DNA from: Salinibacter sp. 10B
GTDB taxonomy: Bacteria; Bacteroidota; Rhodothermia; Rhodothermales; Salinibacteraceae
Direction: 5' to 3'
Assembly (NCBI RefSeq): GCF_002954405.1
Contig: NZ_MQWC01000004.1
Coordinates: 1,138,301-1,202,300 of the forward strand
Length of the DNA: 64,000 nucleotides
In this document: piece by piece, positions 5,405 to 27,961 of the stretch
Layout: every line of letters starts with the position of its first letter
Position numbering within the stretch: the first letter of the stretch is position 1
Position numbers and translations under genes: made by a program
The notes under the pieces: model-generated
The model's database searches: none
Told to the model about the DNA's origin: nothing
What the model saw: only the letters and a program-made list of their open reading frames with translations

Positions 5405-6106
5405 TCAGCCGAGAAGCAACGGGCGGCTCTTTCCGGACGCCGATACGGTAGAGGACGCCTCCGAAGAGCTTGTGGTTGGCGCGTCCGACGCGGTGTCGGA
5501 CGCGTGTTCCTGTTGCGGAGGTGGCGCCCGACGAATGGCGTTGAGGTAGCGCACAACATAGACGCCAAAGGAAAAGACAAAGAGTCCGGCCGACATCCAG
5601 AGGCAAACGTTAAAAACAGGAAGATCAGCTTTCAAAATGACGCTCACGACGGTGAGGGCCAGCCAAAGGCTCGCGGCTTTCCCCGCCCAGGCGCTCATGA
5701 GCACTTTGCCGGACCGATTTGCAATCCATGCTCCTCCGGCGAGAATGAGCAAATCACGCCCGACGATGACCCCAAAAAACCAGAGCGGGAGCTCAGGCGC
5801 CCCCTGCACCTCGGGCCTGAAGGTGAGCACTGACACTGTGAGCACGGCCGCCACCTTGTCGGCCACGGGATCGATCACCTTGCCCCACTCAGAGACGGTG
5901 CGCGTCCACCGGGCCACCCGCCCGTCGAACCAGTCGGTCATGATGGCAATGACGGTAAGCCCCAGCAACCAGTCCAGCGGGCCATCTTGCCACAGCAAAA
6001 CGGCAATCGGAAACACCAGGATGAGCCGCGACAGACTAAGCGTGTTCGCGATCGTCCAGAACCGTCCGAGGTCCGGCCAAAGTGTCGAGGAAGAAGACGT
6101 GGACAT
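5405..6106 (-). CDS. pgsA: CDP-alcohol phosphatidyltransferase, PgsA-like
   Basis: An integral membrane enzyme that probably joins glycerol 3-phosphate to CDP-diacylglycerol, the committed step to phosphatidylglycerol. The family motif DGx2ARx8Gx3Dx3D is complete: DGRVAR, eight residues, then G, D and D, ending in GKVIDPVADK. It is preceded by LSLSRLILVFPIAVLLW, which fits the first membrane helix. Several hydrophobic segments follow. The C-terminal 40 residues are Ser/Thr-rich and look disordered. The start at 6106 (MSTSSSSTLW) was chosen over an ATG 18 codons further upstream. The exact alcohol substrate is inferred; other CDP-alcohol transferases share the motif. ftsY follows on the same strand. 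Confidence 0.85.
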   Translation of the reverse strand: MSTSSSSTLWPDLGRFWTIANTLSLSRLILVFPIAVLLWQDGPLDWLLGLTVIAIMTDWFDGRVARWTRTVSEWGKVIDPVADKVAAVLTVSVLTFRPEVQGAPELPLWFFGVIVGRDLLILAGGAWIANRSGKVLMSAWAGKAASLWLALTVVSVILKADLPVFNVCLWMSAGLFVFSFGVYVVRYLNAIRRAPPPQQEHASDTASDAPTTSSSEASSTVSASGKSRPLLLG

Positions 6107-6379
6107 ACCGATTCGGGCGCAAATGACAGGTTCCCAGGAGACCAGAGGACCGTGCTCCAACGGGCAGCAATCGGGACGTTGCCAATCGGCAAAGGGCTGT
6201 GGTGGGGCAGATCCCGGATGTATCCAAGGTAGTAGAGAATTCGGTCCACCTCCACTATCCTGTGCGATGACGACAGAAATCCATGCGGATTTTGTTCGTC
6301 GTTATGCCCTGTAAGGGAGATTATAAGCTCCCCTGGTCCGCTCCGTTTTTCTCCATTCGCACGTCGACTTCCCGTCAGA

Positions 6380-7495
6380 ATGCTTCTTCTGTTCGGCGGT
6401 GCCCTCGCCGTTCTCCTTCTGTACGCCCTTCTTCTGAGCTGGGGATGGCGCCGTGCTCGTCGAGAGACGCCCGCGCTGGACGCCAACGATCTTCCTGCAC
6501 TGTCGGTCGTAGTCGCCGCCCGCAACGAGGCGGACGTCCTCCCCTCCCTTTTCGAGGCTCTGGACGAGCAGTCGCATCCCTCCTACGAAGTCGTCATCGT
6601 CAATGACGCCTCAACCGACGACACTTCTGCCCTCGCGGCGGACTGGGCGGCCAACCGCTCGTGGGCCCAGGTGGTCCACGTCGAGGACCCGTCGCCTCCC
6701 CGCAAGAAGCACGCCCTCACACAGGGCATAGCCGCTGCCCAGCACGACCTCTTGGCCTTCACTGATGCCGACTGTACGCCGCCCCCGAACTGGCTTTCGG
6801 ACCTGGCGGCAGCCCACGCCGCCACAGACGACGATTGTGTGCTCGTGGGATACAGTCCTCTTCGGGGCACCGGCCTCCTCGGGTACTTTGCGCGCTATGA
6901 AACGCTGCTCCATGCCCTCTACATGGTCGCTGCAATCGGATGGCATCGACCGTACATGGCAGTGGGCCGCAACCTCAGCTACCCACGCTCCGTCTTCGAA
7001 GCAGTGGATGGGTTTTCCCATGCTGGCGGAGGCCAAGCCTCAATGAGTGGCGACGACGACCTCTTCGTGCAGGCGGTACACCGACAAGACTGTGCTCCTG
7101 TCCGTGCTCTTCTCGCCCCCAGCACGTTCGTGCCCACCTCCGCCCCGCCCTCCTGGCAAAGCTGGTGGCGGGCGCGGCGTCGGCACGTCTCGGCCGGTCG
7201 ACACTACTCGTGGACGGTGGGCCTCCACCTCACGCTGCTCCACACCAGCCTCGTCCTGCTCTGGATCGCCCCTCTGATGCTCGGGACGCTCGGGGTTGGC
7301 CTTCTCGCGACGAGCCTCCTCGCCCGCCACGCCCCGCTGGGACTTGCCGCGGAGACGCTCGACGAAAACGATCTGCTGCCCCTCTTTCCACTGTGGGAGT
7401 TCGGGTATGCGTTGTACCATGCGACGGTGGTGCCGTTGGGGCTTTTTTCCCCCCCGGACCACTGGGATGAACCGGAACGCCCCACCCAGGACTGA
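6380..7495 (+). CDS. Membrane-bound family 2 glycosyltransferase
   Basis: Residues 4-22 are a membrane anchor. Residues 41-180 form a GT-A fold: LSVVVAARNE, VVIVNDASTDDTS, and the metal-binding FTDADC (Asp129, Asp131). A later GDDDLFVQ supplies the acidic block typical of processive or N-acetylglucosaminyl-type family 2 enzymes, followed by a WW-R-RRH motif (SWWRARRRHVSAGRH) like the Q/RxxRW element. Two or three hydrophobic helices close the protein. It probably makes a cell envelope or exported polysaccharide; donor and acceptor are unknown. The stop abuts the nadA stop with no base between them. Confidence 0.88.
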   Translation: MLLLFGGALAVLLLYALLLSWGWRRARRETPALDANDLPALSVVVAARNEADVLPSLFEALDEQSHPSYEVVIVNDASTDDTSALAADWAANRSWAQVVHVEDPSPPRKKHALTQGIAAAQHDLLAFTDADCTPPPNWLSDLAAAHAATDDDCVLVGYSPLRGTGLLGYFARYETLLHALYMVAAIGWHRPYMAVGRNLSYPRSVFEAVDGFSHAGGGQASMSGDDDLFVQAVHRQDCAPVRALLAPSTFVPTSAPPSWQSWWRARRRHVSAGRHYSWTVGLHLTLLHTSLVLLWIAPLMLGTLGVGLLATSLLARHAPLGLAAETLDENDLLPLFPLWEFGYALYHATVVPLGLFSPPDHWDEPERPTQD

Positions 7496-8590
7496 CTACC
7501 CGATCTCCAGCATCCGTTCCACCGCCTCCAGCGCACGAACGCGGACCGCTTCCTCCACTTCAATCTGGTACTGATTGTTCGCGAGATTGCGTCGCGTATC
7601 CTGAAGCGTGATCTCGTTCATGTGGGGACACCGCTGCCAGCACATCCGAAGCATGTCCTTCTCTGGATTGGCCCCCATGATGTTTTCGCCCATCGAACAC
7701 TCGGTGAGCAACAGATAGCTCTCCGCGTTGGTGTTTTCGACGTAGTCGATCATCGACGAGGTGCTGCCCGAATGATCGGCCTCCTCCACAACCTCCGGAC
7801 TGCACTCCGGATGGGCGAGCACCACCGTGTCGGGGTGTTCCTCCCGCGCCTGCTTAATGTCGTCGACCTGAAACATCTCGTGAACAACGCAGCGCCCATC
7901 CCATCCAATCAGGTCGGCATCCAGGTCCTCAGCAGGGGCCCCATCTCCCCCCGTCGGAGCTCCATCTCCTCCTCGCCCCTTCCGCTCGCGCTTCTGCGGA
8001 AAAAGGATGTCCTTCCCGGTCTCATTGGCCACGTTCTGAGCCAGAAACTCGTCCGGAATAAAGATGACGGTCTCCGAGTCCAGCGACTCGACCACCGCGG
8101 CGGCGTTGCTGGAGGTACAGCACACGTCGCTTTCGGCTTTTACGTCGGCGTAGGTATTCACGTACGTCACGATGGGCACGCCGGGATAGCGCTTGCGGAG
8201 CTGTCGCACATCCTCTGCCGTGATGCTTTCCGCAAGAGAGCACCCGGCCTCCTCTGCCGGCAAAAGCACCGTCTTGTCCGGATTCACGATCTTCGCCGTC
8301 TCGGCCATGAAGCGCACGCCGCAGAACACAATCGTATCCGCATCGGCCTGCGCGGCCCGTCGGCTCAACTCCAACGATGATCCTGTGTAGTCCGGAATCG
8401 TGTGGAAGAGGGCCGGCTCCATGTAGTTGTGGCCAAGGATGACCGCGTTGCGCTCCTTCTTGAGCTGGTTGATCTCGGCGGCAAGCTCGGCCTTCCGACG
8501 CAAATCGACCTCATGGGCGTCATCGAGGCGTTCCTCCAGCACGTCGTAGAGTGCGTCGGGGGACGTCAGAGTAGCGGCGTCGTTCTTCAT
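7496..8590 (-). CDS. nadA: Quinolinate synthase A
   Basis: Condenses iminoaspartate with dihydroxyacetone phosphate to quinolinate, using a [4Fe-4S] cluster. The likely cluster ligands are Cys117 (EEAGCSLAES), Cys234 (GWDGRCVVHE) and Cys321 (QRCPHMN). ILGHNYMEP, CGVRFMAET and VTYVNTYADVKAESD are family blocks. Residues 199-225 form a hydrophilic Gly/Asp-rich insertion containing a repeated GGDGAP, just before the second cluster cysteine; most homologues have a short loop here. It is the last gene of a nadB-nadC-nadA cluster, 53 bp after nadC. Confidence 0.96.
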   Translation of the reverse strand: MKNDAATLTSPDALYDVLEERLDDAHEVDLRRKAELAAEINQLKKERNAVILGHNYMEPALFHTIPDYTGSSLELSRRAAQADADTIVFCGVRFMAETAKIVNPDKTVLLPAEEAGCSLAESITAEDVRQLRKRYPGVPIVTYVNTYADVKAESDVCCTSSNAAAVVESLDSETVIFIPDEFLAQNVANETGKDILFPQKRERKGRGGDGAPTGGDGAPAEDLDADLIGWDGRCVVHEMFQVDDIKQAREEHPDTVVLAHPECSPEVVEEADHSGSTSSMIDYVENTNAESYLLLTECSMGENIMGANPEKDMLRMCWQRCPHMNEITLQDTRRNLANNQYQIEVEEAVRVRALEAVERMLEIG

Positions 8591-15658: not shown

Positions 15659-18600
15659 TCACTGAAGACGATTCTCAAACCACAACACAGCGTTTTCCGA
15701 CTGAGACGCTGTAAGTACGTCCAAATCGCCGTCCCGCTCCACGTCCGCGACTTCCAAGGAGAGAACGTCCGGGAGCTGGGTTGCAATGGGCTGCGGCGTA
15801 CCGAAGGCGCCGTTGCCTTCATTTTCAAACCAGACGATCTTGTCGCTGTCGAACGAGGCTGCGAAGATGTCCCGGTGGCCATCCCCGTTGAGATCGCCGG
15901 AATCGATGCTCTCTACGGTTCGCAGGTCACTCACTAACACCCGTCCGGACCCGAAGGCGGGCTCGGCCCCGATCGAATCGGTACGGTTTTCGAAGAGAAC
16001 GATGGGTTCTCCCCCCGCCTTGCCGACAATCACATCCGTCCATCCATTTCCGGTAATGTCTGCCGTGTGTACTTCAATTGGTTCGCGCAGGTGGGTCCCA
16101 ATCGGAGCCCGCTCCACAAAACGGAGCGAATCGGACTGGGGGACTGGCTCGTAGCGGGCAATCGTACTATCCTGATACGAAACGACGAGCACATCGGGAA
16201 TCTGATCGCGATCGAGATCCGCGATGTGCAGGGTTTCGAGGCCGCGCACCCCCTCCGTGATGGGACGTCCCTCCGCAAAGGTCCCGTCCCCGGTATTCTC
16301 GTACCACCGGACCGTTTGGTCTAACAAAGCCCCACTTATCACGTCGGTGTCCCCGTCCTGGTCGAGATCGGCCGCCCGCACCGTGACCGCTCCGTCGGCT
16401 GCGGGCGAAAGGGGACGCGGGTTGCCGAATTCGCCTCCCCCGCGGTTTTCGTACCAGGCAACCACGTCGTTGCGAAGGGAGGCGGACAACACGTCCACCC
16501 GCCCGTTGCCATTGAGGTCCGCCGTGTACACGTCTACGGCCCCGTCGACGGCCGAGTCCAGGGCTTCCGGCGCCTGAAAGCCCTTCTGGGACGACAGGGC
16601 ATTTTGACTCCAGGACACGGCCCGGTCTCCCAGAGAGGCAATCACGACGTCGAGATCGCCGTCGTCGCCTAGAGAGTCGGCCCGTACCACCTGGGGCTGA
16701 TCTACCTCTGCCGTCACGGTTTGCCGAGCTCCGTTGAAGGGGACCCGGAAAGTGACGTGGGCGTGCGCCGTATCGCCCGCCGCATCGGCGAGGACGTACC
16801 GCACCCGAGCAGTTCCAGCAAACGCAGCCGCCGGTCGAAAGCGAAGACGGGCCGAATCGATCACCGTTACTCGTCCGACGGAATCAGGGAGCGCCCCGAC
16901 CGACCGAACGCGGAGCGCCGAGCCGTCCGGGTCCCGATCATTCTCCCGAACGTTGACCACGGATGCGTCTGCCGTCGTCATGAGTTGATCGGCACGCGGG
17001 CGGGGAGGCTCATTGCTAACCCCCCACCACCCGACCACCAAAAGCACGACCAGTCCCCCCAGCCCAATGGCCACGTTCCGGAGCGAGGCCTCGTTCGCGA
17101 TGGGAGCACGATCCTGCGCTTCCGCCCGGTCGAGGGCAGCCCGAACAGTCGTCGACCTGCCCGGCTTTACCTTCACCTCCTGATCCCAGCTTCGCGCCCC
17201 CTCAGCCGCCTCTGCCCGCACCCGGTGCGTACCCGGTGCAAGATCGAACTGCTTAGTCTGGCCGGCGTCGAGCGCAACCGTCCGTTCCCCATCCACCGAC
17301 ACGCGAGCAGGACGGTCCACCTCCACCCGAACGGACCCCGACTCTGTTGCCCCTTCGAGGCCGGATTCGTCCTCCCCAGATTCGCCCTCGTCCCTCCCCG
17401 ACGCTCTCGGCGCTCTGCCGCCAGCCGTCCTCCCAGCCGGTTCCGCCTGCGCCTCGGGAGAATCTGCCGTTTCCGTAGGCTGGCCGGACGGTTGGGCTTC
17501 CTCTGTTGGCCCCGGGTGCACGGGCTCCGCTGCCTCAGGGGAACCGGCGCTTTCCGGCTGCACCGTCTCGCCGTGCATCGGATCCCCCCTGTCGGGCTCC
17601 GTTGCCTCCGACGGGCCCGCTGCTTCGGCTTCAAAGTCGATGTCTACGGACGTGGGGGCCCCTGTCGTCACCGACACGACCTCTTGCCACACCAGAGCGT
17701 CAAGCGAAAACCGGGTCCCCTCCTCCTCTGCACGTGTGTCCGTGGCCGTGACCGTCGCCTGCCCACTGTTGGTCCGATCGGTCCGCACCGCCCGTAGGCG
17801 ATGGCTGCCTCCTTCTACGCCAATCGTGAACGTCTTCGCCGGCGGAAGCGTAGCGGTCTGTTGCCCATCTACGTAGAGTCGGCACGCGTGCGTAGCGGTC
17901 ACCTGCAGCTCAGCCGTCCCCTCCAGATCGGGTGCTCGGTCGAGGGTCGTCGCCTCGCCAATCCACCCGGGCTCTGCATCGGCGGGAGCCTCGGGCAACA
18001 GTTCAGCAAACGCCTCCATGGACTGGGGACGAGTGTCCGGACGCACCTCAAGCCCTGCCGTGACCGCCTCGTTTGCGGCCTCCGAGAGAGAAGGAACGAG
18101 CTCGCGTGGAGCCACAAGCTCGTCATCAAGGATGCGAGCGGCGGCCTCCGGCGGCTTGTAGCCGGTGAGGGCCCGGTACAGCGTGGCCGCACAGGCATAG
18201 ACGTCGGTCCACGGCCCCTGGTCACCGTGACTATGATACTGCTCGTGGGGAGCGTAGCCTCGCTTCAACACGACCGACATGCTATGCGTGCGCTCTCCGA
18301 CCGCCGTACGTGCCGCCCCAAAGTCCAGCAGCACGACCGTTCCGTCGTCGGCGAGATACACGTTGTTCGGGTCAATGTCGCGGTGCAGAATGTCCTCCTC
18401 GTGCACCGCCGCCAATCCGTCGACCACCTGCTCCATGATGAGAAGGGCCTCCTCCTCTGGGATAAATCCGTTTCGGGCCTCCAGATACTCGCCCAACGTT
18501 CGCCCCTCGTAAAAATTCATTACGAGGTAGGCCGTCCCATTTCCCTCGAAGAAGCTTCGCACCCGAACGATATTGGGGTGTCGCTCAAACTTGGCGAGGG

Positions 18601-18898
18601 TACGAGCCTCCTGTAGAAACCGCTCAAGCCCATACTCGAAGTCCTGATCTCCTCCGGCCGACGACAACGGCTGGATCGTATCGCCGTCGGTTTCACGAAC
18701 GGCAATGTCATTCGGCAAATACTCCTTGACCGCCACCACCATCTCCAGGACCTCGTCAAAGGCGAGATACGTGATGCCGAAGCCGCCTACTCCCAAGACG
18801 CGCCCTACTCGAAATTGGTCGTCCAGAAGCGTCCCCTGATCGAGTGCAAGGGGACTGCGATTGGAAGGATCGTCCTGAAAAATGTCGTCCCGATCCAT
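15659..18898 (-). CDS. Transmembrane Ser/Thr protein kinase with FG-GAP/VCBS-like exterior
   Basis: A 1079-residue receptor-like kinase. The kinase domain (about 28-302) has the Gly loop GVGGFGITY (36-44), VAVKEYLP with Lys58, HRDIDPNN (172-179, Asp in place of the usual Lys after HRDI) and LDFGAAR (191-197). Two PEGA-like beta domains follow at about 328-385 and 521-590, separated by a Glu/Pro-rich linker. A membrane helix covers 608-626. Outside is an Ig/cadherin-like domain (about 640-720), then repeated VCBS/FG-GAP blades to the C-terminus, each with an acidic D-x-D-x-D style loop such as DLNGNGRVDVLSA. Such blades form calcium-binding propellers. The ligand is unknown and the gene stands alone. 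Confidence 0.9.
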   Translation of the reverse strand: MDRDDIFQDDPSNRSPLALDQGTLLDDQFRVGRVLGVGGFGITYLAFDEVLEMVVAVKEYLPNDIAVRETDGDTIQPLSSAGGDQDFEYGLERFLQEARTLAKFERHPNIVRVRSFFEGNGTAYLVMNFYEGRTLGEYLEARNGFIPEEEALLIMEQVVDGLAAVHEEDILHRDIDPNNVYLADDGTVVLLDFGAARTAVGERTHSMSVVLKRGYAPHEQYHSHGDQGPWTDVYACAATLYRALTGYKPPEAAARILDDELVAPRELVPSLSEAANEAVTAGLEVRPDTRPQSMEAFAELLPEAPADAEPGWIGEATTLDRAPDLEGTAELQVTATHACRLYVDGQQTATLPPAKTFTIGVEGGSHRLRAVRTDRTNSGQATVTATDTRAEEEGTRFSLDALVWQEVVSVTTGAPTSVDIDFEAEAAGPSEATEPDRGDPMHGETVQPESAGSPEAAEPVHPGPTEEAQPSGQPTETADSPEAQAEPAGRTAGGRAPRASGRDEGESGEDESGLEGATESGSVRVEVDRPARVSVDGERTVALDAGQTKQFDLAPGTHRVRAEAAEGARSWDQEVKVKPGRSTTVRAALDRAEAQDRAPIANEASLRNVAIGLGGLVVLLVVGWWGVSNEPPRPRADQLMTTADASVVNVRENDRDPDGSALRVRSVGALPDSVGRVTVIDSARLRFRPAAAFAGTARVRYVLADAAGDTAHAHVTFRVPFNGARQTVTAEVDQPQVVRADSLGDDGDLDVVIASLGDRAVSWSQNALSSQKGFQAPEALDSAVDGAVDVYTADLNGNGRVDVLSASLRNDVVAWYENRGGGEFGNPRPLSPAADGAVTVRAADLDQDGDTDVISGALLDQTVRWYENTGDGTFAEGRPITEGVRGLETLHIADLDRDQIPDVLVVSYQDSTIARYEPVPQSDSLRFVERAPIGTHLREPIEVHTADITGNGWTDVIVGKAGGEPIVLFENRTDSIGAEPAFGSGRVLVSDLRTVESIDSGDLNGDGHRDIFAASFDSDKIVWFENEGNGAFGTPQPIATQLPDVLSLEVADVERDGDLDVLTASQSENAVLWFENRLQ

Positions 18899-19043: not shown

Positions 19044-19077
19044 GAAAAAATGCCGGACCGCCCTGAAGCGGTCCGGC
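19044..19077 (-). terminator. Rho-independent terminator after the PfpI-family gene
   Basis: The 10-base arms GCCGGACCGC (19052-19061) and GCGGTCCGGC (19068-19077) are exact complements around a six-base loop. On the minus strand the stem is followed by ATTTTTT. It lies about 30 bp beyond the stop of the PfpI-like gene. Confidence 0.9.
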
Positions 19078-19106
19078 AGAAGAGTCCAACTTCCGGAAAT
19101 GCGACG

Positions 19107-24119: not shown

Positions 24120-24686
24120 ATGGAGCCATTTATCGGACAAATCACCATGGTCGGCTTCAACTATGCCCCGCAGGGCTGGGCCCTGTGTAATGGGCAAACA
24201 CTTCCGATCTCGCAGAACCAGGCCCTCTTCTCGTTGCTCGGCACCTACTATGGCGGCGACGGACGCACGACCTTCGCGCTCCCCGACCTGCGCGGTCGCG
24301 CCCCGGTGCATCAGGGGCAAGGACACGGCCGCCACTACTCAATGGGACAGCAGGGCGGCCGAGAGGAAGAAACAATGAGCATCGACCAGATGCCGGCGCA
24401 CAACCATCCGATCCAGATCACGAAGGCCAATATTGAGGCACACGTCGGAGAAGGAAGGGGCGAATCGGCGGATTCCAAAACGCCAGACGGTAGTCTCCTT
24501 GGGAATCCAACTGAAAGCATCTACTACAAAGACAAAGGCCCGAACGTGTCCCTCTCGAAGAGTGCCATAAGTGTAGAAGCTCAATCAGGCAATACGGGCG
24601 GATCTCAACCCGTGTCGAAGATGCAGCCCTACACGACAGTAAACTTCATCATTGCCCTGCAAGGCCTTTATCCGCCCCGGTCCTGA
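24120..24686 (+). CDS. Phage tail-collar domain protein (microcystin-dependent protein family)
   Basis: A 188-residue protein starting MEPFIGQITMVGFNYAPQGW, followed by ALCNGQTLPISQNQALFSLL and GTYYGGDGRTTFALPDLRGR, which is the tail-collar fold. The QMPAHNH block and the C-terminal YTTVNFIIALQGLYP are the usual continuation in the microcystin-dependent protein (MdpB-like) family. No signal peptide is visible. The family is found in phage tails but also in cellular gene sets with surface proteins, as here. It is followed by a DUF6916-like gene and a large secreted protein on the same strand, without any other phage genes. Confidence 0.92.
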   Translation: MEPFIGQITMVGFNYAPQGWALCNGQTLPISQNQALFSLLGTYYGGDGRTTFALPDLRGRAPVHQGQGHGRHYSMGQQGGREEETMSIDQMPAHNHPIQITKANIEAHVGEGRGESADSKTPDGSLLGNPTESIYYKDKGPNVSLSKSAISVEAQSGNTGGSQPVSKMQPYTTVNFIIALQGLYPPRS

Positions 24687-24729
24687 TGACCTCCTCGGCC
24701 TATAGACTCTGGAATGAACCGGTACAACC

Positions 24730-25065
24730 ATGTCTGATATCCACAATCGCGAGCACTATGAGGGAACGGAAGGAACGACCCTCATAGTGAAGATCGACGA
24801 GAACACGACCGTCGAACTTACACAAGTCGACTACAACGACACCAGCAACGCTCAGATTGACGGGTTTTCTGTCCTCTTTGAGGGCTCGGACGATGCGATT
24901 TTCGACCAGGGACTCTACTCCGTCGAGCACGCCGACGTCGGCGCGGGCGAGGTGTTTCTCGTTCCGGTCCTCAGTCAGGATCCCGAAAAGCGGAAATACG
25001 AGCTCGTCGTGTCGAAACTAAAAAAGGACGTCAACGAGGCTGGAGGCGACGCAGGACAAGGCTGA
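24730..25065 (+). CDS. DUF6916-like small protein
   Basis: A 111-residue acidic protein. The pattern DGFSVLFEGSDDAIFDQGLYSVEHADVG, spread over residues 45-72, and VFLVPVLSQDPEKRKYELVVSK match the DUF6916 group, whose members regularly sit next to tail-collar proteins. The function is unknown. It lies 43 bp after the tail-collar gene, so the two are probably co-transcribed. The family call is by eye and moderately sure. Confidence 0.7.
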   Translation: MSDIHNREHYEGTEGTTLIVKIDENTTVELTQVDYNDTSNAQIDGFSVLFEGSDDAIFDQGLYSVEHADVGAGEVFLVPVLSQDPEKRKYELVVSKLKKDVNEAGGDAGQG

Positions 25066-25156: not shown

Positions 25157-27961
25157 ATGAATACTGCTTCCCCTGCCACTGTCCCAAAAGCGACTCTCGT
25201 TGTCTTTCTCTTCGCTTTCGTCGGAACGGTCGCTCCTGCGTCCGCCCAGGTATCGACGGAGAAACTTGCATGCTCGTACGGTTCCCAGTCACCTATTTCG
25301 GCTCAGATCAACAATGCCGTTGACTCGGGGAACGCTTTGCTGGTCGTTCCTGCGACCGCGTTTTCGACGAATTCATTTACAGTGACTATTGACGACGGGA
25401 GCGGGACGAGTCAGTCTCTCTCGCAGGTGTACGGCTTTACCGATAGCGGATATGACGGTCACTGGTTGCATGCGGACTTCGACTCGCAGGCCTGGCCGAG
25501 TGGGTCGACGATCACCGTCAAAAACGGGAGCACCGACCCACTCGGGTTTTGTGCAATTGAGGTCTCGGGGTTGGAAAAATCGAATGCGGTCGACGTGACG
25601 AGTGGAAATTTCAACCCTTCTCGGAACATAAACGCCTTTTCCGGCAGCGTGACGACGACGCAGGCGCAAGAGCTCTTGCTCGGAATCACGAGCTTCGGGT
25701 TCGATGGCGTCATATTTGCAGATCCCGGAGCTAACTTTACCAAGATTGCAGAGACGGACAACGGGAACACCCCCGATGACGGCAACGCAGAAGGCAATTT
25801 GATGCTTGCCACCCGAGAGGTGAGTTCGAAAGGAACGTATGAATCGACGGCGTTCCTGGAAGCTCAAGACTTCTGGAACGCGTCTATCATCGGACTCAAA
25901 ATCCAGGCGAACGCCTCCCCCACCTTCACCGCCGGTTCGAGCACGTCGCTGAGCGTCGACGAAGACGCGGCGGCCACGTCCCTCAACTCGCAATTGGAGG
26001 TGGACGACCCCGACGGGGGCCAAACGCTGGAGTGGACCGTATCGGCGGCCCCGTCCAACGGCAGCCTGTCTGGATTCCCAACCACTGCCGGCAGTGGAAC
26101 CGAAGTGCAGCCCTCCGGCCTCACGTACGATCCGAACCCCGACGTCAGCGGCTCGGACGCCTTTGACGTGCAGGTATCCGACGGCAACGGCGGCTCGGCC
26201 ACCATCACCGTAAACGTCACCGTCAATAACCTTCCGCCCGCGTTCAACTCGTCCAACTCGGCCTCCGTCCCTGAGAGCAGCACCGGCACGGTCCTGGACG
26301 TCAACGCCGACGATGGCGGCGAGGGAAGCAACGACAGTGGAGTCAACTACACACTCAGCGGCGGTGCGGATGAGGGAGTGTTCAACATCGACGTGAACAC
26401 TGGTGAACTGACTCTTGACACCGCGCTCGACTACGAAAATCCCACCGACAGCGACGGCAACAACGACTACGTGGTGGAGGTCAGCGCCGACGACGGCGAA
26501 TCGAGCAACAACATCGCCACACAGACAATCACCGTCACCGTGACGGATGTCAACGATCCGCCGACGCTTGCCCTCGGCTCCACGAGCGGATCGGTCGACG
26601 AAAACAACAGCCCCCCGAACGTCCTGACCAGCATTACGATCAACGATCCGGACGGCGGAACCAATAATCTTTCGCTCAGCGGCCCCGATGCCGGGGACTT
26701 CAACATCAACGGCAGCAATGAGCTCGAATTTACTGCGACGGCCGACTTCGAGTCAAAAAGCAGCTACGACGTGACCGTCGAGGTCAGCGACCCAAATGCT
26801 GGCACCGATAGCCAGGACTTCACCCTCTCGATTACCGACGTGCCGGACCTTCAAATCACCGACGGCGCCTCGCAGAATCTGGACTTCACCGCCCAGGTGT
26901 CGCCGGGCTCCGATGACAATCCGGTCGGTCTCTTGAAGCTCGTCGCCGAGGAAACTGGGGCGGCCTTTACTGGGGCAACCATCTCAAACAATGCTCCTGG
27001 TGTCTCCGGCATCAAGCGCGCGGCGCTCTACTGGTCGACCGACCAAAATTTTGACCCGGGGAGTAGCGACCCGCTGCTCGCCGCCTTCGACGTGACTGAC
27101 AATAGCGCCGAGGCAACATTCACGTTCAGTGGCTTCAACCAGCCAGTGCCTTCCTCGAACGGCTTCTTCTTCCTCGCGATTGACGTTGCCTCCAGCGCCC
27201 CCGACACCGACGTCCGCTTCTCCCTCGACGGGCTAACGGTGAGCAAAAGCGAGATCGCGACGGTGAATGGAACCAGCCAGTCGAGCTTCTCGGCACTGCC
27301 GCTCTCAAACGGCTCGACGGCCTTGCCGGTGGAGTTGGCTCGCTTCGACGCAACGACGAGCAAAACCGACGGGGTGACCCTTCAGTGGCAAACGATTTCG
27401 GAGACCGACAACGCTGGATTTGACGTGCAGCGCCGCGTAGCAAGTGCCCATGGGGGGCGCCGGATCGGGAGCTCCGTTAAGCCGTCTCGACGAGACGGCC
27501 TGACTGAAGATCAGACATGGCAGACCGTTGGATCCGTGGACGGCGCCGGCACGACGACCGAGGCGCAGTCCTACCACTTCGAGGACGCCGACGTCCCGTA
27601 CGCCGCCGACTCACTGACGTACCGTCTTAAGCAGGTCGATACCAACGGGACAACCAGCTACTCTGACCCGCTCACAGTGTCTCGCCCCTCGGTACAGCGG
27701 GTGCAGCTCTTGGGCACGTCTCCAAATCCAGCCCGCACGCAGGCAATGGTTCGATTTGCGATTCCGAAAGGCTCATCCAAGCACGTAGCCTTACACCTCT
27801 ACGACGTCATGGGACGGCAGGTGCGCACGGTACAAACCACCGCCGAACCCGGACGGCACACCCTTCAGTTCACGACCGATCACTTGTCGAGCGGCGTGTA
27901 CTTCCTGCGACTGCAGGCCGGATCCACTGTCAGAACCCAGCGGCTTACCGTGGTGCGCTAG
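25157..27961 (+). CDS. Large secreted surface protein with cadherin-like repeats and sorting-type tail
   Basis: A 934-residue protein. Residues 1-31 are a signal peptide (ending VGTVAPASAQ). Residues 32-255 form a domain of unknown type. Three cadherin/Ig-like repeats follow (about 258-355, 356-465 and 466-560), with DxNDxPP-type linkers such as VTDVNDPPTL. A further beta domain spans about 565-720. The last 85 residues (LLGTSPNPARTQAMVRFAIP, then YDVMGRQVRTV and GVYFLRLQAG) resemble the type IX secretion sorting domain, including the NPA start and GVYFLRL end. It is probably an adhesin or matrix protein. It follows the tail-collar and DUF6916-like genes. Confidence 0.88.
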   Translation: MNTASPATVPKATLVVFLFAFVGTVAPASAQVSTEKLACSYGSQSPISAQINNAVDSGNALLVVPATAFSTNSFTVTIDDGSGTSQSLSQVYGFTDSGYDGHWLHADFDSQAWPSGSTITVKNGSTDPLGFCAIEVSGLEKSNAVDVTSGNFNPSRNINAFSGSVTTTQAQELLLGITSFGFDGVIFADPGANFTKIAETDNGNTPDDGNAEGNLMLATREVSSKGTYESTAFLEAQDFWNASIIGLKIQANASPTFTAGSSTSLSVDEDAAATSLNSQLEVDDPDGGQTLEWTVSAAPSNGSLSGFPTTAGSGTEVQPSGLTYDPNPDVSGSDAFDVQVSDGNGGSATITVNVTVNNLPPAFNSSNSASVPESSTGTVLDVNADDGGEGSNDSGVNYTLSGGADEGVFNIDVNTGELTLDTALDYENPTDSDGNNDYVVEVSADDGESSNNIATQTITVTVTDVNDPPTLALGSTSGSVDENNSPPNVLTSITINDPDGGTNNLSLSGPDAGDFNINGSNELEFTATADFESKSSYDVTVEVSDPNAGTDSQDFTLSITDVPDLQITDGASQNLDFTAQVSPGSDDNPVGLLKLVAEETGAAFTGATISNNAPGVSGIKRAALYWSTDQNFDPGSSDPLLAAFDVTDNSAEATFTFSGFNQPVPSSNGFFFLAIDVASSAPDTDVRFSLDGLTVSKSEIATVNGTSQSSFSALPLSNGSTALPVELARFDATTSKTDGVTLQWQTISETDNAGFDVQRRVASAHGGRRIGSSVKPSRRDGLTEDQTWQTVGSVDGAGTTTEAQSYHFEDADVPYAADSLTYRLKQVDTNGTTSYSDPLTVSRPSVQRVQLLGTSPNPARTQAMVRFAIPKGSSKHVALHLYDVMGRQVRTVQTTAEPGRHTLQFTTDHLSSGVYFLRLQAGSTVRTQRLTVVR

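Follow-up and report, generated by a model that had tools for sequence, protein, structure and literature searches.

The window, the whole 64,000-nucleotide stretch analysed here, carries on its minus strand a gene for a large predicted receptor kinase (Table 1). The open reading frame begins at an ATG, runs for 1079 codons to a stop and contains no internal stop. Its product combines a Ser/Thr kinase domain (Pkinase, PF00069, E 3.5e-33), one hydrophobic helix (mean hydropathy 2.26, its position corrected for the five additional residues that the open frame carries), a membrane-proximal Big_9 domain and a run of FG-GAP/VCBS repeats. In the Pfam search, FG-GAP_3 (PF13517) matched with an E-value of 6.5e-42 and five stretches passed individually; a profile built from the repeats of the orthologues counted seven in the window protein. 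No NCBIfam equivalog scored above its cut-off for the protein.

The gene is separated from the PfpI gene upstream by a terminator-like hairpin of 12 pairs followed by T6, which suggests a separate transcription unit for the kinase gene. The stretch contains seven terminator-like sites, where shuffled sequence gave 3.1 (sd 1.9), and no sigma-70-like promoter was found in it. A TonB-dependent outer-membrane receptor is encoded next door, and Pfam identifies a secreted protein with a Por_Secre_tail domain at 25157-27961. Elsewhere in the window, at 24120-25065 on the plus strand, Pfam recognises a protein with a phage tail collar domain and, after it, a DUF6916 protein.

Table 1. Features of the receptor kinase gene and its upstream flank.
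Feature	Coordinates	Strand	Basis
Whole gene, kinase / TM / Big_9 / FG-GAP, 1079 aa	15659..18898	-	ORF call, translation, Pfam
Ser/Thr protein kinase domain, residues 30-297	18008..18811	-	Pfam PF00069, phmmer, Foldseek
Catalytic loop HRDIDPNN, residues 172-179	18362..18385	-	alignments
Lys212 codon, P+1 loop (VLKRGYAPHEQY)	18263..18265	-	alignments, pair counts
Conserved cytoplasmic region C-terminal of kinase, ~323-420	17639..17932	-	whole-protein match ranges
Acidic Pro/Glu-rich linker, ~424-524	17327..17629	-	sequence, by eye
Second PEGA-like region, 526-590, sub-threshold	17129..17323	-	PEGA, CarboxypepD_reg scores
Single transmembrane helix, 609-627	17018..17074	-	hydropathy; helix in model, low pLDDT
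Big_9 / cadherin-like Ig domain, 629-717, membrane-proximal, outside	16748..17014	-	Pfam PF17963, E 4.2e-12
Seven FG-GAP/VCBS repeats, ~745-1078, predicted 7-bladed propeller	15665..16666	-	Pfam, repeat profile, fold
Terminator-like hairpin between upstream PfpI gene and kinase gene	19051..19078	-	

We searched for relatives with the whole protein against 60 genomes, its own included, and with the exterior against all 27 genomes of the family. The order kinase, transmembrane helix, Big_9, FG-GAP recurs in complete proteins of three relatives (G009, G016 and G022), so the layout is more than a chance joining. In a fourth relative, G008, a contig ends in a 389-codon fragment that lacks the kinase part and is 76% identical to the exterior of the window protein. 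Counting the window's own genome (G000), the exterior thus occurs in five of the 27 family genomes and two of nine genera. It was not found in the other 22, several of them incomplete; among family genomes at least 90% complete it is present in 3 of 14. Its absence from most of the family indicates that it is not generally needed.

In the window, G009, G016 and G022 alike, the kinase gene has PfpI and two DoxX genes beside it. PfpI was also present in nine of nine further genomes queried, and in seven of these nine, within 16 kb surroundings of PfpI, the DoxX pair lay nearby in six and a kinase match in none. The kinase gene therefore fills a slot that stands empty in many relatives. Downstream, a homologue of the TonB receptor is present in the window, in G016 (second gene on) and in G008; in G009 none stands beside the kinase, and in G001 (L287) one occurs near PfpI where there is no such kinase. 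A partnership with this receptor is hence unsupported, and any link between the two is speculative. Nor did a cognate phosphatase or FHA protein, proposed as a check in the original prediction, emerge close by: PP2C_2 (PF13672) and FHA (PF00498) gave two and four matches in the gene's own genome, every one outside the window and the nearest about 197 kb away. That genome holds eleven Pkinase matches, one of them under the family cut-off, and both PP2C_2 matches and two of the four for FHA are no more than 5 kb from another kinase.

Between kinase and membrane, the original prediction had placed PEGA-like domains. PEGA (PF08308) had no match in the piece 320-425, which holds the first of these regions, and scored 16.2 bits against a cut-off of 20.8 (E 0.0098) on the piece holding 526-590. 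CarboxypepD_reg reached 21.7 bits on this second region, against a cut-off of 32.3. The assignment comes down to one sub-threshold match in the second region, and PEGA is ruled out as its filed family because the score falls under the curated cut-off. By eye, a region of the 526-590 type could not be recognised in the three complete orthologues. The stretch at about 323-420, C-terminal of the kinase, is covered by matches in G009, G016 and G022 and in an Amt-kinase fusion described below.

To characterise the exterior, we built AlphaFold2 models from five sequences. The best of five (mean pLDDT 80.3, pTM 0.77) is nearly all strand after the helix and forms a 7-bladed propeller; the other four had mean pLDDT values of 78.7 down to 56.2. 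Foldseek placed fungal PVL-type lectins, KICSTOR, BBSome and integrin alpha chains among the matches listed, with TM scores on the query of about 0.35-0.60 over the best 50 listed. In VIA-align, aldos-2-ulose dehydratase scored Z 35 and integrin alphaIIb Z 33 (rmsd 2.6 over 328 residues). Every one of the 981 aligned chains reached a Z of at least 8, so these scores speak for a common fold and give no indication of function. The propeller exterior originally read from the repeats is thus borne out as a predicted fold, by the best model and by the alignment to integrin alphaIIb.

The location of the propeller departs from what had been supposed. The TonB-dependent receptor and the Por_Secre_tail protein indicate that an outer membrane exists, so the exterior, behind one inner-membrane helix, should by its predicted topology lie in the periplasm and not at the cell surface. 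This placement does not imply that the receptor senses cell contact or a ligand at the surface. What is supported of the original reading is the layout of kinase, transmembrane helix and propeller and the catalytic-loop variant; the PEGA-like domains are not confirmed.

Receptors that join a kinase to a propeller across the membrane are already known as a kind. PknD, a receptor of Mycobacterium tuberculosis with a six-bladed, NHL-type propeller, has the closest layout described and shares the order kinase, transmembrane helix, beta-propeller. The window protein differs in its seven FG-GAP/VCBS blades, its Big_9 domain and its PpkA-like kinase without HRDxK, and NHL is absent from the 12 Pfam families listed for it; the FG-GAP/Big_9 protein is a variant on the PknD kind. 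Integrin-type FG-GAP/VCBS propellers, as presented in the available text of PMC3192720 and PMC8023676, have seven repeats with DxDxDG loops and belong to the 7-bladed integrin-alpha class, as here. Within these two accounts of bacterial FG-GAP/VCBS proteins, the word kinase occurs 0 times in the main text of PMC3192720 and once in the available text of PMC8023676, where the 6-bladed protein kinase PknD is mentioned. Among the matches listed from the open-access literature, none described an FG-GAP receptor kinase, although an earlier description may exist. The earlier statement that no such architecture had been described therefore survives for the exact domain order, but not for the union of kinase and propeller, which PknD exemplifies.

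No frame uniting kinase and FG-GAP appeared among the matches listed in 82 genomes from the phylum to which G298, a KSB1 record, belongs (at most nine candidates per genome), nor, in a weak test with at most three candidates per genome, outside the own genome among 198 genomes of the own phylum. The repeat profile run against 307 kinase ORFs produced 12 matches, all copies or cuts of the window, G009, G016 and G022 genes; 148 of these ORFs are at most 600 aa long and 80 loci were cut near the kinase, which leaves their exteriors largely out of view. The kinase domain also matches the PADLOC model PD-T4-6 (1.7e-47), and its NCBIfam MAD6 score of 139 lies below the cut-off of 460. We rejected the anti-phage kinase PD-T4-6 as an identity for the whole protein: among the best 25 of 34 matches, 24 stop at or before residue 325 and the remaining one covers 20-508, short of the exterior.

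We then examined the kinase domain. Its nearest solved chain by sequence is PpkA (5hnv, phmmer 3.7e-54), and PpkA 5hnv is also the nearest solved fold to our model of the domain (mean pLDDT 87.0; Foldseek TM 0.82/0.92, rmsd 1.9, 37% identity). Across an alignment of 15 sequences, window included, K58, E97, D174, N179 and D192 are invariant, corresponding to the beta3 Lys, alphaC Glu, HRD Asp, catalytic-loop Asn and DFG Asp. The HRDxK lysine is absent; the loop reads HRDID, with Asp176 at the lysine position, and the alignments confirm HRDIDPNN as a variant carrying Asp where Lys is usual. In PKA, the HRDxK lysine makes contact with the gamma-phosphate and with the region of the catalytic Asp. 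A different lysine, Lys212, lies seven residues before Glu219 in the 15-sequence alignment; it stands where PKA has Thr201, with the seven-residue spacing of Thr201-Glu208 in PKA. Residues 207-209 of the activation segment, just before Lys212, are modelled with a pLDDT below 50.

PpkA itself bears on this position. The protein of 5hnv and 5x1q-5x1t, from Serratia, likewise lacks the HRDxK lysine (HRDIS) and carries a lysine in VLKPGFAP; by count, its equivalent of Lys212 is Lys203. The window protein differs in having Asp where PpkA has Ser and in its propeller exterior. PpkA kinases act in type VI secretion, according to the available text of PMC3953482, and Pfam found no T6SS families among 8 neighbouring ORFs screened. 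WNK kinases have a catalytic lysine relocated within the active site, as described in the accessible parts of PMC1821047 and PMC12599244. There the residue that moved is the beta3 ATP-binding lysine (PKA K72), whereas in the window kinase it would be the catalytic-loop lysine (PKA K168).

We gathered related kinases, 280 loci at the final count, from whole genomes and 80 named contigs; the contig search patterns fix neither lysine site, though one fixes residues beside the P+1 site. Going by record titles, PpkA-like kinases were found in Pseudomonadota, Bacillota, Nitrospirota, Synergistota and Chloroflexota as well as in the window's own order. A first count of 148 domains already set K/T and K/S (HRDxK position/P+1 position) against S/K, A/K, D/K and T/K. 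After 62 identical cores were dropped, the 307 ORFs left 245 domains with distinct cores; a further 25, which lacked the HRD Asp, the Asn or the DFG Asp, had a gap at a site or were too short, were set aside to give 220 intact kinases. All 139 with HRDxK lack Lys or Arg at the P+1 site, where they have Thr (106), Ser (31), Ala (1) or Asn (1). The 81 without HRDxK carry P+1 Lys in 76 cases, Arg in one and neither in four, and both lysines together occur in 0 of the 220. D/K rows number nine, every one from the window's own order. The four exceptions look intact and read D/T, T/T, Q/A and H/T; in G009, of the same genus, two neighbouring kinases (L050:2731-4998 and 5857-8049) are D/T and T/T, with both lysines absent.

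Such a pattern could also arise if two old subfamilies with fixed residues had passed them on by shared ancestry, with no functional compensation, a reading that we consider doubtful. Many S/K rows do cluster on the tree, and the independent-pairs test, the stricter check, found few pairs: five in 128 rows (four same, 0 opposite, one undecided) and three in 220 rows (one or two same, 0 opposite), neither result significant. Ancestry fits less well with the 6-7 changes at each site on trees built without the two columns, with the lack of any opposite pair, or with the rarity of neither-lysine kinases and absence of both-lysine ones. A Pagel-type test of correlated evolution likewise favoured dependence (LR 46.0, chi2 p 2.5e-9); 0 of 84 simulations under independence reached this value, the null maximum being 12.2, although few events can inflate such a test. 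For that reason we grade the exchange of lysine between HRDxK and the P+1 loop, as read from these sequences, as probable. The open-access literature yielded no report of it among the matches listed, and an earlier description may exist; the available portions of PMC1821047, PMC3192720, PMC12599244, PMC8023676, PMC8436480 and PMC3415842 contain neither the lysine exchange nor an FG-GAP kinase.

The exchange informs whether the kinase is alive. If loss of the HRDxK lysine had abolished catalysis, the protein would be a pseudokinase scaffold that signals by conformation or binding alone. We think this improbable, even with Asp in the catalytic loop where Lys is expected and with degenerate paralogues of the superfamily in this bacterial order, 13 rows without HRD. 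Those rows all lack HRD together with an intact DFG, three retaining the DFG Asp, but the window kinase keeps the beta3 Lys, HRD Asp and DFG Asp, and loss of any of these is what marks bacterial pseudokinases in the available text of PMC12599244. The lysine exchange is, moreover, kept in the 76 kinases with intact motifs. The degenerate paralogues are L009, which comes from the window's own genome, L023-L026 and L028-L035. Because the five invariant residues are intact and Lys212 matches the missing lysine, we do not judge the kinase dead: an inactive domain, the outcome named as refuting the original prediction, is not what the residues suggest, HRDIDPNN does not in itself point to one, and the protein is probably a working receptor.

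Related modules occur with other membrane parts. In G009, L042:2663-5332 encodes an ammonium transporter domain (PF00909, 3.3e-116) and Pkinase (1.5e-30) in one frame; it shares 70% identity with the window protein across residues 2-427 and is, from its sequence, a candidate ammonium-sensing Ser/Thr kinase. Other related kinase modules carry TPR repeats and several TM helices. This joining to varied membrane parts supports a signalling role. It also weighs against an envelope-binding or structural protein whose propeller does the work while the kinase is incidental, which we regard as very improbable: several of the best exterior Foldseek matches are fungal lectins, at a modest TM of about 0.45 on the query, but a similar kinase joined to Amt, TPR and multi-TM parts in relatives is what would be expected of a signalling module.

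We therefore favour, as likely, a PpkA-like receptor Ser/Thr kinase that spans the inner membrane once, with a periplasmic propeller as sensor and catalytic competence through Lys212. The predicted Ig domain and 7-bladed propeller would bind a protein, a glycan or a component of the envelope, and the DxDxDG-type loops may hold metal ions. Binding would cluster or realign the chains, and the cytoplasmic kinase domains would autophosphorylate in trans and relay the signal. On the evidence of covariation, Lys212 would take over the role of the HRDxK lysine, with Asp176 as its possible salt-bridge partner; we infer competence because that role appears to have moved. In a wider joint reading, to which we give an even chance, PpkA-like kinases moved the HRDxK lysine to the P+1 loop reciprocally and more than once, the window's own order turned the vacated site into Asp, and such modules became joined with membrane sensors, among them an integrin-like propeller and an ammonium transporter.

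A bacterial kinase whose loop reads HRDIS, HRDIA or HRDID could be mistaken for a catalytically impaired enzyme. If true, the pairing rule, a lysine in HRDxK or in the P+1 loop and never in both, would help to sort working from dead kinases and would be directly testable by mutation. The exchange would then be another way of rebuilding a kinase active site. The predicted architecture further suggests that in a bacterial receptor kinase the sensing is done by an integrin-type propeller.
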